Shown here piece by piece: positions 2,767-48,651 of a stretch of DNA of 64,000 nucleotides. Within the stretch, counting starts at the first letter, position 1, and each line of letters opens with the position of its first letter. Source of the stretch: Planococcus sp. PAMC 21323 (lineage in GTDB: Bacteria; Bacillota; Bacilli; Bacillales_A; Planococcaceae). The notes under the pieces are model-generated. The model did not search any database, was not told the DNA's origin, and saw only the letters and a program-made list of their open reading frames with translations. A program made the position numbers and the translations under genes. Where the stretch lies: assembly GCF_000785555.1 (NCBI RefSeq), contig NZ_CP009129.1:1550001-1614000 (forward strand). The letters run 5' to 3'.

Positions 2767-3231
2767 TTAAAAAGCATGCTCTTGTTTAATTTTCTGAAGT
2801 AAAGCCGTACAACCTTCAGTGACTAGCTTATACGTTTCGTTAAAATCATCTGTGAAATAAGGATCAGGAACGTCCTTTGAATGATGAGTTACGTCTAAAA
2901 AACGAAAAATTTTTGGATGATCTGGCTGTTCTAGCATCGAGCGAATATCTGCTATATTGTTTTCGTCCATCGCAACAATATAGTCAAATCGCTCAAAATC
3001 TTTATGCTGGATTTGTCTCCCTTTTAATCCTTTAACTGAAATATTATGGTCTTTTAAAATTTTTAATGTTCCCGGATGCGGATCATTTCCAATATGCCAA
3101 CTTCCAGTGCCCGTAGATTCTACTTGTATTTTTGAAGATAAATCATCTTTAGTAACTAGCTCTTTAAAAACAGCTTCGGCCATTGGCGAACGACATATAT
3201 TTCCCAAACAAACAAATAATACGCGGATCAT
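2767..3231 (-). CDS. Low-molecular-weight protein-tyrosine phosphatase
   Basis: A 154-residue LMW-PTP resembling Bacillus YfkJ. The P-loop CLGNICRSP (CX5R) begins at residue 8, and the general-acid loop DPYF with its aspartate is near residue 122. Such enzymes dephosphorylate tyrosine or arginine phosphates in cytosolic proteins. The third P-loop position, which separates arginine from tyrosine specificity in some members, is asparagine-isoleucine here, so the target residue is left open. The ATG follows AAGGGGG. Monocistronic. Confidence 0.92.
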   Translation of the reverse strand: MIRVLFVCLGNICRSPMAEAVFKELVTKDDLSSKIQVESTGTGSWHIGNDPHPGTLKILKDHNISVKGLKGRQIQHKDFERFDYIVAMDENNIADIRSMLEQPDHPKIFRFLDVTHHSKDVPDPYFTDDFNETYKLVTEGCTALLQKIKQEHAF

Positions 3232-3323
3232 TCGGATTCCCCCTTATTTGGCGAGTTGTATTTTCAGTCATTATAACATCACAAACAAAAGTCGTGGAGG
3301 CAATCAATAATATTCAAACACAA

Positions 3324-3361
3324 AAAACAGCTCGTCCCTTTAAGGAGGAAAGCTGTTTTAC
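3324..3361 (-). terminator. Terminator of the small membrane protein gene
   Basis: AAAACAGCT and AGCTGTTTT flank a loop; on the minus strand the stem is followed by TTTTTTGTG. It lies just past the stop at 3370. Confidence 0.55.
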
Positions 3362-3369
3362 ACCGACAG

Positions 3370-3579
3370 TCAAATTTTAAAATGTCTTTTGCCGGTAGAT
3401 TTATTGCGTACTAATTTTCCTTTGTAAATGACCCACAGCACATATAGGATACCAACAATACTTAACGAAAATAAGGTGACTTGAGAGAAAGTCAAACTTT
3501 GCTGCATCAATTTTTCTGTATAGCGGATGCAGTTTAACGTAAGAAGCAATATCGGCAACCATAACCAATTATTAGAAAT
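3370..3579 (-). CDS. Small two-helix membrane protein, likely ATT start
   Basis: A hydrophobic microprotein of 69 residues if started at ATT (3577-3579). The mature-looking sequence begins SNNWLWLPILLLTLN and has two likely membrane helices (about residues 5-17 and 32-48) with a basic C-terminus ending TGKRHFKI. A good ribosome binding site, GGGAGG at 3588-3593, sits eight bases before the ATT. The alternatives are an in-frame TTG at 3558 without a nearby ribosome binding site, or an internal ATG giving about 45 residues. No family recognised. Confidence 0.55.
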   Translation of the reverse strand: MSNNWLWLPILLLTLNCIRYTEKLMQQSLTFSQVTLFSLSIVGILYVLWVIYKGKLVRNKSTGKRHFKI

Positions 3580-3817
3580 TGACGCTTCCTCCCTTTTAAG
3601 AGTGACCGGCTTTATCTCTGAAAGCTTCTAATCAACTCGACTCTTTATTTTAGCAAAAAAATAGGATAAATAAATAGTTTTTTATTTTTTTATTTTCAGA
3701 ATGGACTTATTGTTTAAATTTCATATAAAAGCTAGTGGTAACGTGCTCTACACTACCGGCTAACTTTTTTCGTTGTATTTCATACAGCCTTGTAACAAAA
3801 AGAAAGGACTGATTTTA

Positions 3818-4810
3818 TTGGAGACTTTATACTTAATCGCGGGCATTTTTGTACTTATCGTATGCATTATCGATTTTACATGGACTACATTATGGATTGA
3901 TGGCGGAGCGGGACCGGTTACTGATCGTCTATCTTCATCTGTCTGGAGATTCATGAGAAAGATTGGAGGTAATCACTCCAAGTTATTAAGCTTAGCTGGA
4001 CCGCTCGTATTAAGTACCACATTACTCATGTGGATTGTTTTATTGTGGATAGGCTGGACCTTTACTTTTGCTGGCTTAGAGCAATCCATTTCGCCTTCTC
4101 ACGGAACAGATCCGATTTCTTGGTTTGACCGCTTTTACTTTGCAGGCTATTTAATATTCACATTAGGAAATGGTGATTTTAGTCCGATGGAAGGAACTGC
4201 TCAAATTCTTTCGATTGTCGCAACTGCCACGGGTATGTTGTTTATTACTTTTGGTGTAACTTACTTAATCTCGATTTTAAGTGCCGTGACAATGAAACGG
4301 TCTTTAGCTGTTAGCGTTCACGGTCTTGGTGAGTCTGCTGAAGAAATTGCTAGAAGTTCGTGGAATGGTGAAGATTTTCATGATTTGAATCTGTTGCTAG
4401 CTAGCTTTTCTGAAAACTTAAGTTCACTCGCTGCTCAACATGCTGCCTATCCTGTTTTACATTATTACCATGCGATCAGCAATACAACCGCAATGCCAAC
4501 AGCCATCGCGGTGTTAGATGAAAGTTTAAGTATCATTAAGCTAGCGGTTCCAGAAAAGCATCACCCAAACCAACTTATTTTGAAAGAAATGCGTTCTAGT
4601 ATCGATCAATATTTAGAAACGCTTGAACAATCGTTTTTCAAACCATCTGAACAAGTCCCTCCTCTTCCGGATTTTATTTCACTCCATGAAGAAGGGATTC
4701 CTTTAATACTAGAAAAAGAATATACATCAGCTTACAAAAAAATTGAAACTCGCCGAAGAAAATTACTCGGTGGTCTCGAGGCAGATGGTCGCCCTTGGCC
4801 GTCAAATTAA
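3818..4810 (+). CDS. Two-TM ion channel family protein (potassium channel-like)
   Basis: A 330-residue membrane protein. It opens with a hydrophobic helix, has a second helix around residues 60-85, then a pore-loop-like segment with LGNGDFSP where potassium channels carry TVGYGD, followed by a third helix near residues 125-150. The rest is a soluble, mostly helical cytosolic tail of about 170 residues. The pore glycine-x-glycine-aspartate frame is kept but tyrosine is replaced by asparagine, so potassium selectivity is uncertain. I choose the TTG at 3818 because GAAAGGA precedes it; an upstream ATG-frame codon at 3773 has no such site. Confidence 0.8.
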   Translation: METLYLIAGIFVLIVCIIDFTWTTLWIDGGAGPVTDRLSSSVWRFMRKIGGNHSKLLSLAGPLVLSTTLLMWIVLLWIGWTFTFAGLEQSISPSHGTDPISWFDRFYFAGYLIFTLGNGDFSPMEGTAQILSIVATATGMLFITFGVTYLISILSAVTMKRSLAVSVHGLGESAEEIARSSWNGEDFHDLNLLLASFSENLSSLAAQHAAYPVLHYYHAISNTTAMPTAIAVLDESLSIIKLAVPEKHHPNQLILKEMRSSIDQYLETLEQSFFKPSEQVPPLPDFISLHEEGIPLILEKEYTSAYKKIETRRRKLLGGLEADGRPWPSN

Positions 4811-46244: not shown

Positions 46245-46724
46245 ATGGCAAGTCCAATAACACAGATTAAGAAAAAAGAATGGACCGCTGAAGAAATCCG
46301 TCAGCAAAAGCTTTATGAATTGGAAACTTTGATCGCTGAACAAAACGAGGCACTTAATAAATTATTAGCTATTACAGGTGATTTAGATGACGCTGGTGTT
46401 TTAGACGCTGTGCTCGCGATGGTCAAAGCAAAAGAAGGCATCACTGAAGTCGTAATGGGGCAAGCTACTCGTGAACCTGTTACCAACCTCATTAATAATA
46501 TGATGAGTGCTGCTGGTGCATTGACTGCTATTAATCCTGCATCTACTGAAAGATTGACTTCTAGTATGGTTATAGGATTAAAAGAAGCAGAAGCGCAAAA
46601 TCATAACGGCAAAAAACTTGGTTTATTCCAAATGATTGGCGCAATTAGAGATCCCGACGTCAACCGCGCAATTAAGTTTGGGTTCAATTTCTTAAAAGGC
46701 ATGGGAAAAGGATTAAATAAATAA
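46245..46724 (+). CDS. DUF1641 protein, formate dehydrogenase partner
   Basis: A 159-residue DUF1641 protein resembling YrhD. It starts 14 bases after fdhA with its own GAAAGGTG site. The sequence is amphipathic-helical with DDAGVLDAVLAMVKAKEGI near residue 48 and GLFQMIGAIRDPDVNRAIKFG near 125, the family signature. Proteins of this family accompany cytosolic formate dehydrogenases; a subunit or assembly role is inferred from that association. A terminator follows. Confidence 0.9.
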   Translation: MASPITQIKKKEWTAEEIRQQKLYELETLIAEQNEALNKLLAITGDLDDAGVLDAVLAMVKAKEGITEVVMGQATREPVTNLINNMMSAAGALTAINPASTERLTSSMVIGLKEAEAQNHNGKKLGLFQMIGAIRDPDVNRAIKFGFNFLKGMGKGLNK

Positions 46725-46737
46725 ATAGCTTTTCATA

Positions 46738-46768
46738 AACAGTTGCGGCTTGGCCGCAGCTGTTTTTT
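46738..46768 (+). terminator. Terminator of the formate dehydrogenase operon
   Basis: AACAGTTGCGGC and GCCGCAGCTGTT form the stem, followed by TTTTATTG. Confidence 0.85.
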
Positions 46769-47358
46769 ATTGTGTGAAAGTAAATTTGAGTTTTTCGCGG
46801 TGGATGTTTCCATCAAATATGCAGATGCGTCCCAAATGAATATTTTTGAAAGTAGATTTCTAGAGGTTTAAAAGCATTCTACTTATATAGAAGGAACTTA
46901 AATAAATATATCACTCACTTCTTCTTAAAATGGTCGATTTTGAGTTAAAAATCCCCCCTTTTTTGATTTTGCAAATAAATTTGCGCATTCCGCAAACAAT
47001 GAGTTTTAACCCGCAAATAAATCAAGCTATGCTGCAAACAAACTTTTGAATTCTGCAAACAAACTACGCTTTCCCGCAAACAAACTCAATTTCATTCAAA
47101 AAATAGCTCAACACCCTATTATTTAGTCTCATTAAACTAAAATTTCTCGTTGATTCATAACCAGTCACTAACCACATACTACTCCATTAATTAAAATCTA
47201 GACTTTATCGCTCAATAACTGCTCTTATCATATTATATTCTCTTTTATCCATTTTTCATGACAAGCACACCACTCTGTTATATATTAATTAACAAGAAAA
47301 CAAACTGTATTAATACAGTTTTTCAAGTAAATTTTTTAATCAGAAAGGGATGGATGAC
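46769..47358. other. 590-bp intergenic region before isocitrate lyase
   Basis: No gene found. It holds the 21-bp-phased repeat array (46971-47096), an AT-rich stretch and, at the right end, the isocitrate lyase promoter region and ribosome binding site. No T-box or other riboswitch recognised. Confidence 0.6.
46971..47096 (+). repeat. Six-copy array of GCAAAYAAA motifs at exact 21-bp spacing
   Basis: The motif GCAAA(C/T)AA(A/T)(C/T/G) begins at 46971, 46992, 47013, 47034, 47055 and 47076, always 21 bases apart, about two helical turns. It is usually preceded by C or T and followed by about 11 non-conserved bases. Copies are GCAAATAAAT, GCAAACAATG, GCAAATAAAT and three of GCAAACAAAC. It lies between the fdh terminator and the isocitrate lyase promoter. 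The face-phased geometry resembles a protein-binding iteron array. Confidence 0.85.
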
Positions 47359-48651
47359 ATGGTCGCAAGCAAACTTCAACAAATTGAGGAATTGAATACT
47401 AGTTGGGAAAATGACAGTCGCTGGAACGGCATTGAACGTATGTATACAGCAGAAGAGGTTGTAAAACTTCGCGGTTCTGTACGAATCGAGCATACTTTAG
47501 CAAGAAAAGGCGCAGAGCGTTTATTCCGCTCGATTCATGAAGAGGATTTTGTGAATGCGTTAGGTGCTCTGACAGGTAACCAAGCTGTTCAACAAGTAAA
47601 AGCTGGATTAAAAGCCATTTACTTGAGCGGCTGGCAAGTAGCTGCAGATGCCAACTCTGCAGGTCAAATGTATCCTGACCAAAGCTTATACCCTGTCAAT
47701 TCAGTCCCTGATGTTGTTAAGAAAATTAACCAAGCGCTTCAACGTGCTGATCAAATTGATGGTGTTGAAGGAACTGAAGGTTTTGATTGGTTTGCACCAA
47801 TTGTTGCAGATGCTGAAGCTGGATTTGGCGGCCCATTGAACGTCTATGAATTGATGAAAGCTATGATTGAAGCTGGCGCTGCTGGCGTTCACTTTGAAGA
47901 TCAATTAGCATCTGAAAAGAAATGCGGACATTTAGGTGGCAAAGTATTGTTGCCAACTCAAAATGCTGTAAGAAATCTAGTTTCTGCTCGATTAGCAGCA
48001 GATGTACTTGGCGTACCCACTTTAATCATCGCTCGGACAGATGCTGATGCAGCTGACTTAATCACTAGCGACATTGATCCGCGTGACCATAAATTTATTA
48101 CTGGTGAACGCACACCTGAAGGCTTTTACCGGACAAATCCTGGTATCGACCAAGCCATTGCGCGCGGTTTAGCTTACGCGCCTTATGCAGATCTTGTCTG
48201 GTGTGAAACGTCTCATCCAAACTTGGAAGAAGCACAACAGTTTGCAGATGCAATTCATGCAGAATTTCCTGGCAAATTGCTCGCTTATAATTGTTCACCG
48301 TCATTTAACTGGAAAGCGAAGCTTGATGAAGAAACGATTGCAAAATTCCAAGTTGAACTTGGAAAAATGGGCTATAAATTCCAATTCGTTACGCTGGCTG
48401 GTTTCCATACATTAAATCACAGCATGTTCGAACTGGCTCACGACTACAAAGATCACGGCATGGCCGCTTACTCGAAACTGCAACAAGCTGAGTTCGCTAA
48501 TGAATCAAAAGGCTATACAGCGACACGTCATCAGCGTGAAGTCGGTACGAGTTACTTTGACGAAATCTCTCAAATTGTTTCTGGTGGGACAAGTTCAACA
48601 ACTGCTATGAAAGGTTCAACAGAAACCGCTCAATTTACCACAACGAACTAA
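47359..48651 (+). CDS. aceA: Isocitrate lyase
   Basis: A 430-residue isocitrate lyase, first enzyme of the glyoxylate bypass, cleaving isocitrate to succinate and glyoxylate. The active-site KKCGH loop is near residue 190, with [10 protein letters not shown] near 92, [12 protein letters not shown] and ADAEAG in the barrel, [13 protein letters not shown] near 285 and [13 protein letters not shown] near 313. ATG at 47359 is nine bases from AAAGGG; an in-frame ATG at 47350 touches that site. Malate synthase is not adjacent. Confidence 0.96.

Follow-up and report, generated by a model that had tools for sequence, protein, structure and literature searches.

The window analysed here is a stretch of 64,000 nucleotides from Planococcus sp. 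PAMC 21323. Within it, a complete six-unit repeat array of 126 bp (46971..47096, plus strand) lies between a co-directional gene on the fdh side (46245..46724, plus strand, 159 aa) and a 433-aa gene (47350..48651, plus strand) that the original prediction had called isocitrate lyase and that we used as a syntenic anchor (aceA). The array begins 246 bp 3' of the fdh-side gene and ends about 250 bp upstream of aceA. A terminator-like hairpin with a T-run (46737..46765, plus strand) stands 3' of the upstream gene, with the array some 200 bp further on; at other loci, unlike in the window, the array often follows directly after the terminator T-run. The six cores, all on the plus strand, start at 46971, 46992, 47013, 47034, 47055 and 47076, exactly where they had been placed before, and all five steps measure 21 bp. 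Core 1 (46971..46979) and core 3 (47013..47021) read GCAAATAAA, and cores 4 (47034..47042), 5 (47055..47063) and 6 (47076..47084, the last unit) read GCAAACAAA. The previously given core GCAAAYAAA therefore holds for five of the six, the exception being core 2 (46992..47000), which reads GCAAACAAT, a variant at position 9 that ends in T. TTTT occurs just before the first core, and a T-rich stretch in this place is found in most arrays of this genome.

Five exact matches to GCAAAYAAA were found in the array, and the sixth was recovered with one mismatch. The lone 9-bp motif shows no enrichment across the window, where it has 8 matches against a shuffle mean of 4.8 (14 of 100 shuffles as high), so the signal lies in the 21-bp phase. 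The two-unit pattern matched five times in the window compared with a mean of 0.07 over 100 dinucleotide shuffles, none of which reached five, and the longest 21-bp chain comprised six units versus at most two in 60 first-order Markov simulations. At the threshold used, the array was the sole 21-bp periodic stretch in the 64 kb.

Six-unit arrays also occur upstream of aceA in genomes G006 and G009, with related arrays in G011 and G002, and no array was found at this position in G008, G017, G031, G034, G037 and G044. Overall, an array is present upstream of aceA in 5 of the 11 closest species versus 0 of the 19 others read. The flanks of the empty sites align poorly by eye, so no insertion junction could be read from them. 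Two further features were noted in this interval. A sequence at 46883-46897 of the window, TTATATAGAAGGAAC, appears by eye to be kept upstream of aceA in most close species, array-less ones included. In addition, direct repeats at 20-bp steps (GACTTTATC, GCTCTTATC, TCTTTTATC) lie at 47201-47249, upstream of aceA. Similar repeats, GCTTTTATC, stand upstream of aceA in other Planococcus species, in several of them near a LytTR-domain gene, which in G025 is divergent to aceA. Given this neighbouring gene, the 20-bp-step repeats may be an operator of that regulator.

The original prediction had allowed for a family of dispersed repeats, and this is what the genome contains. In its 3.2 Mb, the two-unit pattern has 23 exact matches against 0 for a reversed control, and 69 against 16 when two mismatches are allowed. 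Twelve arrays were present in the seven regions fetched from this genome; 11 consist of exactly six units, and the remaining one, with ten, is made up of two five-unit runs at the rpsD 3' end. Together with the arrays in relatives and the shuffles above, these counts show that the array is neither unique nor expected in AT-rich DNA. Among 94 Planococcus arrays the unit number ranges from 3 to 10 with a mode of six (52/94), and the step measures 21 bp in 414 of 430 cases. In these arrays the unit reads approximately TATYSY-GCAAAYAAM, with some six free bases behind it. Information content is 1.84-1.95 bits at columns 1-5, 7 and 8, and 1.20 at column 6 (C or T). The free spacer of about 11 bp described earlier must be adjusted accordingly: the gap is 12 bp, of which only about six bases are free, the rest being roughly TATYSY. 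Some Planococcus arrays are spelled GCAACTAAA. Two-unit GCAAAYAAM matches occur in 34 of 46 genomes of the genus, and when genomes of known name were scanned the pattern again pointed to Planococcus, former Planomicrobium among them. At rpsD, a locus that was chosen, like aceA, without regard to arrays and that was found in 46/46 genomes, 30 loci were read; an array stands behind the terminator in all 11 closest, and none of these array spellings was present at the rpsD 3' end in the other 19.

A degenerate four-unit pattern, applied more widely, matched 51 of 261 genomes, spread over 8 of the family's 19 genera, some of these matches being doubtful: those in genus g3 are identical units, those in g14 look coding, and in g6 the reversed control matches too because of the g6 spelling. 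At a step of 20-21 bp, spelling varies with lineage, with GCAACAAAC in g6, ACAACTAAA and GCAACCAAA in g5, ACAACTAAA in g11, and GCAAATAAA in g10 and g17. Most g6 arrays have in common a leader, GGACGTGAATATTCTGCTAAATAACAA or a close variant, and g5 carries complete modules of 143-144 bp in tandem. Outside the family, 2 of 359 genomes in a sample of the class matched, one of them with identical units. Periodic sequence was also encountered elsewhere. In five stretches (L079, L083, L084, L100 and L136; Spirochaetaceae MAG) there are numerous arrays at 21 bp, similar to GCAAACAAACTTATTTTGCTA, whose units are almost identical, and a 21-bp array of eight units resembling GCAAACAAA lies in a Subsaxibacter genome (L087, position 4949, reverse strand). 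In Bacillus sp. S/N-304-OC-R1, a long 20-21-bp array (L124:3500-4250) yields a repetitive LFAK.. ORF and sits between genes that by eye resemble fatty-acid oxidation genes.

In ten orthologous array groups the core is 95.3% identical (2996/3144), a figure inflated by the fact that arrays are recognised by their cores, while identity is 58.0% in the free spacer, 65.6% in the second patch and 71.3% in the flanks. Indels in the arrays numbered 18 of other lengths plus 11 exact unit multiples per 7479 bp, and those in the flanks 237 per 12545 bp. That cores and phase have been kept for so long suggests selection of some kind. The phase and the restriction of conservation to the core also lend indirect support to the earlier proposal of a protein-binding array with its cores on one face of the DNA.

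Several other identities for the arrays were considered and rejected. CRISPR loci consist of near-identical longer repeats separated by spacers of similar length; the arrays here have a 9-bp core and a 12-bp gap and, as was originally concluded, are not CRISPR. They are not coding either, again in agreement with that reading, since stop rates are near expectation with no depletion in six frames across 63 arrays. A structured RNA was rejected on the basis that Rfam gave seven matches in 14 loci, of which the four nearest to arrays do not overlap them. The Rfam elements near arrays were a BsrF-like RNA (L042:3295-3407), a purine riboswitch (L042:3644-3746), a T-box leader (L044:6482-6709) and a Bacillaceae-1 RNA (L320:1651-1717), with no overlap in those checked. 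Folding of eight stretches gave z scores of -0.87 to 0.90 in six, -2.05 in L202 and -1.68 in L318. Intrinsic curvature was set aside, as arrays exceed the flank 95th percentile of AA/TT phasing in only 10 of 51 cases. Plasmid and phage collections gave no convincing array match: three of four plasmid queries found nothing and the fourth gave a 4% match to Monoglobus, five phage matches all had E 6, and in four viral contigs the units were read by eye as coding or identical.

A NERD-domain gene beside pheS (1166101-1167000) sits between arrays in this genome. It is 431 kb from the window array, and its link to the array was invisible to the original prediction. In the stretch concerned (L044), arrays at 2824, 4036 and 4252 surround the gene (3102-4001), all in one orientation. 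The same array-NERD-array order in a single orientation is found in two genomes of genus g6 (L347 and L349), where arrays spelled as in g6 enclose a relative of the gene, and in Bacillus sp. MM2020_4 (L120). The NERD gene thus has arrays of its own orientation to either side, an arrangement that recurs in three genera. In g5, a NERD gene stands directly before arrays in L369, and a C-terminal NERD remnant, found with a custom profile and not by Pfam, stands directly before arrays in L353. Most array loci lack a NERD gene in their vicinity, one being adjacent in 4 of 40 sampled array stretches; in L362, a cut NERD-like ORF lies about 3.8 kb from the array, and no NERD gene was found in the sampled stretches of g10, g11, g17, G068, G172 and G190.

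Membership of the NERD family (PF08378) was assigned by Pfam, with E values of 2.2e-17 in Planococcus, 1e-11 in g6 and 4e-19 in Bacillus; the protein of this genome scores 64.0 bits, above the family cut-off of 22.1, and PF08378 was also matched in G004, in g5 and in both paralogues of the G025 sample described below. Across 18 NERD proteins Q90, D92, E105, K107, N108 and four cysteines are invariant. The protein is predicted to combine a PD-(D/E)XK-like domain (D...ExK), a four-cysteine Zn-ribbon-like part and a C-terminal winged helix, the latter predicted from the order of the final elements (helix-strand-helix-helix-strand-strand) in a model with a mean pLDDT of 88.8. The best Foldseek match was the restriction enzyme BstEII (E 4.3e-3, TM ~0.3), a weak hit with none below E 0.001; XPB-Bax1 complexes and Card1/Can2, likewise weak, were among the other best matches. 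Of three proteins, one had a weak partial match in PADLOC and two had one in NCBIfam. Among the literature matches listed, none linked NERD proteins to repeat arrays. In this strain an in-frame stop falls in the N-terminal stretch of the gene (L044:2940-3110), which is open in relatives; the start would be later, and compared with its neighbours the protein may be shorter or failing.

To relate the presence of the gene to that of arrays at one syntenic site, the interval between the M42 peptidase gene and pheS was read in 28 Planococcus genomes. All 18 genomes with NERD at this site carry a phased array beside the gene, and of the 10 without it, six had no array detected and four had an orphan array (Fisher p 5.6e-4). 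These genomes comprised one batch partly chosen for having arrays and another chosen as array-poor. Among the 12 array-poor genomes with both anchors, nine lack NERD (three of them with an orphan array) and three have it, each flanked by an array. Not included in the counts are G038 (peptidase at the edge), G022 (no such stretch), a first, cut stretch of G025, and, for a missing anchor, G007 and single stretches of G013 (two) and G024 (two). Arrays beside NERD are of the GCAAAYAA type in 13 genomes and of the TGATCATAGAA type, at 20-21 bp, in five; in G025 only two copies are present, on the downstream side of NERD. The orphan arrays of G013, G033, G039 and G045 each have their own spelling (TGATCATAGAA, GCAACCAA, ACGCAGAAATAA and GCAAACAA). 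Genome-wide, degenerate four-unit matches occur in 12 of 13 genomes with GCAAAYAA-type NERD versus 2 of 10 without NERD (p 7e-4).

In a tree of 26 NERD proteins each array spelling falls in one group, with support of 98/98 for the GCAAAYAA group and 100/100 for the TGATCATAGAA group. The tree requires five label changes for six spelling labels, and 0 of 200 shuffles were as low. At one syntenic site, then, the spelling of the arrays and the lineage of the NERD protein change in step. Because NERD descent is confounded with that of the host, part of this co-divergence may be due to common ancestry.

We also examined G025, another species, through an evenly spaced 400-kb sample amounting to 10% of its genome. 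No GCAAACAA arrays occur in the G025 genome. Periodicity of 20 or 21 bp marks 13 stretches of the sample, compared with four at the seven other periods tested (17 to 25). The 13 belong to several spellings, and five of them lie in a predicted, possibly spurious ORF. It also contains two further NERD paralogues, each by arrays of its own. The first (L430:15964-16875) has 20-bp arrays on both sides, whose spelling recurs at another place in L430 as well as in L416 and L433. The second (L428:2390-3235) has 21-bp arrays behind the gene, and these recur elsewhere in the same 20-kb stretch. A genome with several NERD paralogues has several array families. Of the sample's 289 predicted genes, 18 lie within 350 bp of an array, and the NERD gene at L430:15964-16875 is the one gene with arrays to both sides. 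The NERD frame at L428:2390-3235 ends early, and by eye another frame seems to carry on with the C-terminal part. Further 20- or 21-bp spellings are present in L416, L420, L428, L430 and L433, for example GCACGCTC..GAAAATAC, GAGTTRCAACTTTT and ACCGACGTTTTT, the last of which has no NERD partner within the sample.

Taken together, the arrays on both sides of the gene, the co-occurrence, the agreement of lineage with spelling and the arrays at paralogues point to a pairing with NERD. We consider it probable, if by no means certain, that the array in the window is one copy of a dispersed repeat family in a functional pair with a NERD-domain protein, and the repeat family and the nuclease-like gene appear to form a novel type of repeat/nuclease pair in bacteria. 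The earlier interpretation of the locus is partly supported by these data. In the mechanism that we propose, the NERD winged helix would read the core, with one core presented per two helical turns, which would place six molecules side by side along the same face of some 126 bp of DNA. Less certainly, nuclease action at or near the arrays might start recombination or repair, which could copy arrays to new places, and those at gene 3' ends, often behind terminators, may be tolerated or kept.

A first alternative is that an unlinked regulator or chromosome-organising protein uses the arrays as operators or anchors, the NERD gene being just one of the places where such arrays occur. Phase and core conservation would suit any cooperative DNA-binding protein, AA/TT steps are phased at 10.5 bp more strongly in arrays (10.55) than in flanks (6.54), and most arrays lie far from NERD genes. 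We nevertheless judge this explanation unlikely, as it does not account for NERD being the only one of the 289 G025 genes with arrays on both sides, for the recurrence of that order in three genera, or for spelling that follows NERD lineage.

The arrays could also be gene-end elements behind terminators, acting as a roadblock, a Rho-loading site or a topological insulator, as has been proposed for some REP/BIME. As the original prediction had asked of position and orientation, arrays do lie at gene 3' ends, often behind terminator-like hairpins. In a context count using ORFs of at least 100 aa, 20 independent loci comprised eight co-directional in the sense of the array, eight convergent, four co-directional in the other sense and none divergent; the upstream gene was on the array strand at 16 of 20 (p 0.012). 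A terminator-like hairpin occurs within 150 bp upstream of 57 of 94 arrays, one of which has no upstream neighbour. Hairpin and array are duplicated jointly at two loci of this genome, one copy lacking the T-run. The array strand has more C than G (0.276 vs 0.148), as it does in five of six other array groups, including g6 (0.261 vs 0.211). Against this reading, the two g17 arrays are reversed (G > C), and promoter avoidance alone could account for the lack of divergent loci. The 3' bias is also weaker in other lineages, with the upstream gene on the same strand in 38 cases and the opposite strand in 25, and with divergent neighbours at 7 of 59 arrays with both neighbours known, a count that omits the 10 of 74 arrays inside long ORFs. 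Nearly invariant 8-bp cores are moreover more than Rho requires. We regard a gene-end role by itself as distinctly improbable.

That the arrays are old neutral tandem duplications fits the tandem copies of complete modules and the variation in unit number from 3 to 10, and is very unlikely given spacers that diverge around cores 95% identical and a phase kept in 414 of 430 steps, a result favoured by the finding of arrays through their cores.

The remaining candidate, a LytTR-domain regulator, has operators (LRS) of the same geometry, 9-bp direct repeats with a usual gap of 12 bp, and one published site, GCAACTTAG-11 bp-GCAACTTGA, partly resembles the array motif (PMC6193735, excerpts). In G006 (L202:2195-3060) and G008 (L209:2193-3055) two arrays enclose a LytTR gene together with its small hydrophobic partner, a LytTR match falls between arrays in G009, and three of four genomes without a LytTR match have hardly any arrays; the pair is not at the corresponding place in this genome. 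We rejected this candidate, whose probability we put at next to nothing, because the upstream repeats of the neighbouring pair itself (GCACCTTAC-12 bp-GCATGTTAC in G006) are unlike the array core, the fourth LytTR-less genome (G045) carries arrays while several genomes with LytTR have none, and the arrays lie at gene 3' ends, whereas LytTR operators are two sites at promoters.

For the pairing of arrays with NERD, known repeat systems offer partial parallels. Plasmid iterons are direct repeats at about two helical turns that are bound by a winged-helix Rep protein, whereas the arrays here are chromosomal, dispersed and at gene ends. In REPtrons the repeats lie around the gene and several classes exist per genome. 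REPtrons combine dispersed, mostly intergenic repeats with a dedicated, usually single-copy gene of nuclease type (PMC8266576, excerpts), and REP repeats occur near gene ends (PMC12306157, excerpts). NERD resembles this in being a nuclease-like gene with its own dispersed repeats (L044, L347, L349, L120, L430). REP sequences, however, are palindromes of 20-50 nt mostly preceded by GTAG, unlike the direct, non-palindromic units here, which have a 20-21-bp phase and often number four to six; and the REPtron enzyme is an HUH/Y1 transposase (TnpA-REP), whereas the gene linked here encodes NERD PF08378 with a Zn ribbon and a predicted winged helix. As the units are not palindromes and the linked enzyme is not of the HUH type, the NERD/array system would work like a REPtron (RAYT/REP), its nearest analogue, without being one, and may be the counterpart of TnpA-REP (RAYT) with its REP repeats. 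The STAR elements of Staphylococcus are likewise interspersed intergenic direct repeats in Bacilli with locus-specific spacers (PMC3532100, excerpts), as are the arrays here. They have a 14-bp GC-rich motif and spacers of at least 40 bp that are often identical or nearly so within a locus, and the excerpts of that account describe neither a 21-bp phase nor a linked nuclease (PMC3532100). The STAR motif T(G/A/T)TGTTG(G/T)GGCCC(C/A) is absent from the 21-column array profile.

Among the open-licence PMC matches listed, none dealt with this array/NERD system. We tentatively propose, at somewhat less than even confidence, an undescribed Gram-positive class of nuclease and repeat in which a NERD winged helix reads a core placed every two turns, paralogues spread or maintain private dispersed arrays, and the specificities co-diversify. 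If true, this would be a second, independently invented REPtron-like system, based on a different nuclease superfamily and with direct phased arrays in place of palindromes. It would provide a DNA substrate for a kind of NERD-domain protein, along with a naturally occurring set of protein/site pairs whose DNA specificity has shifted at a nearly constant geometry. For the Planococcus family, it would explain a large set of unannotated repeats.
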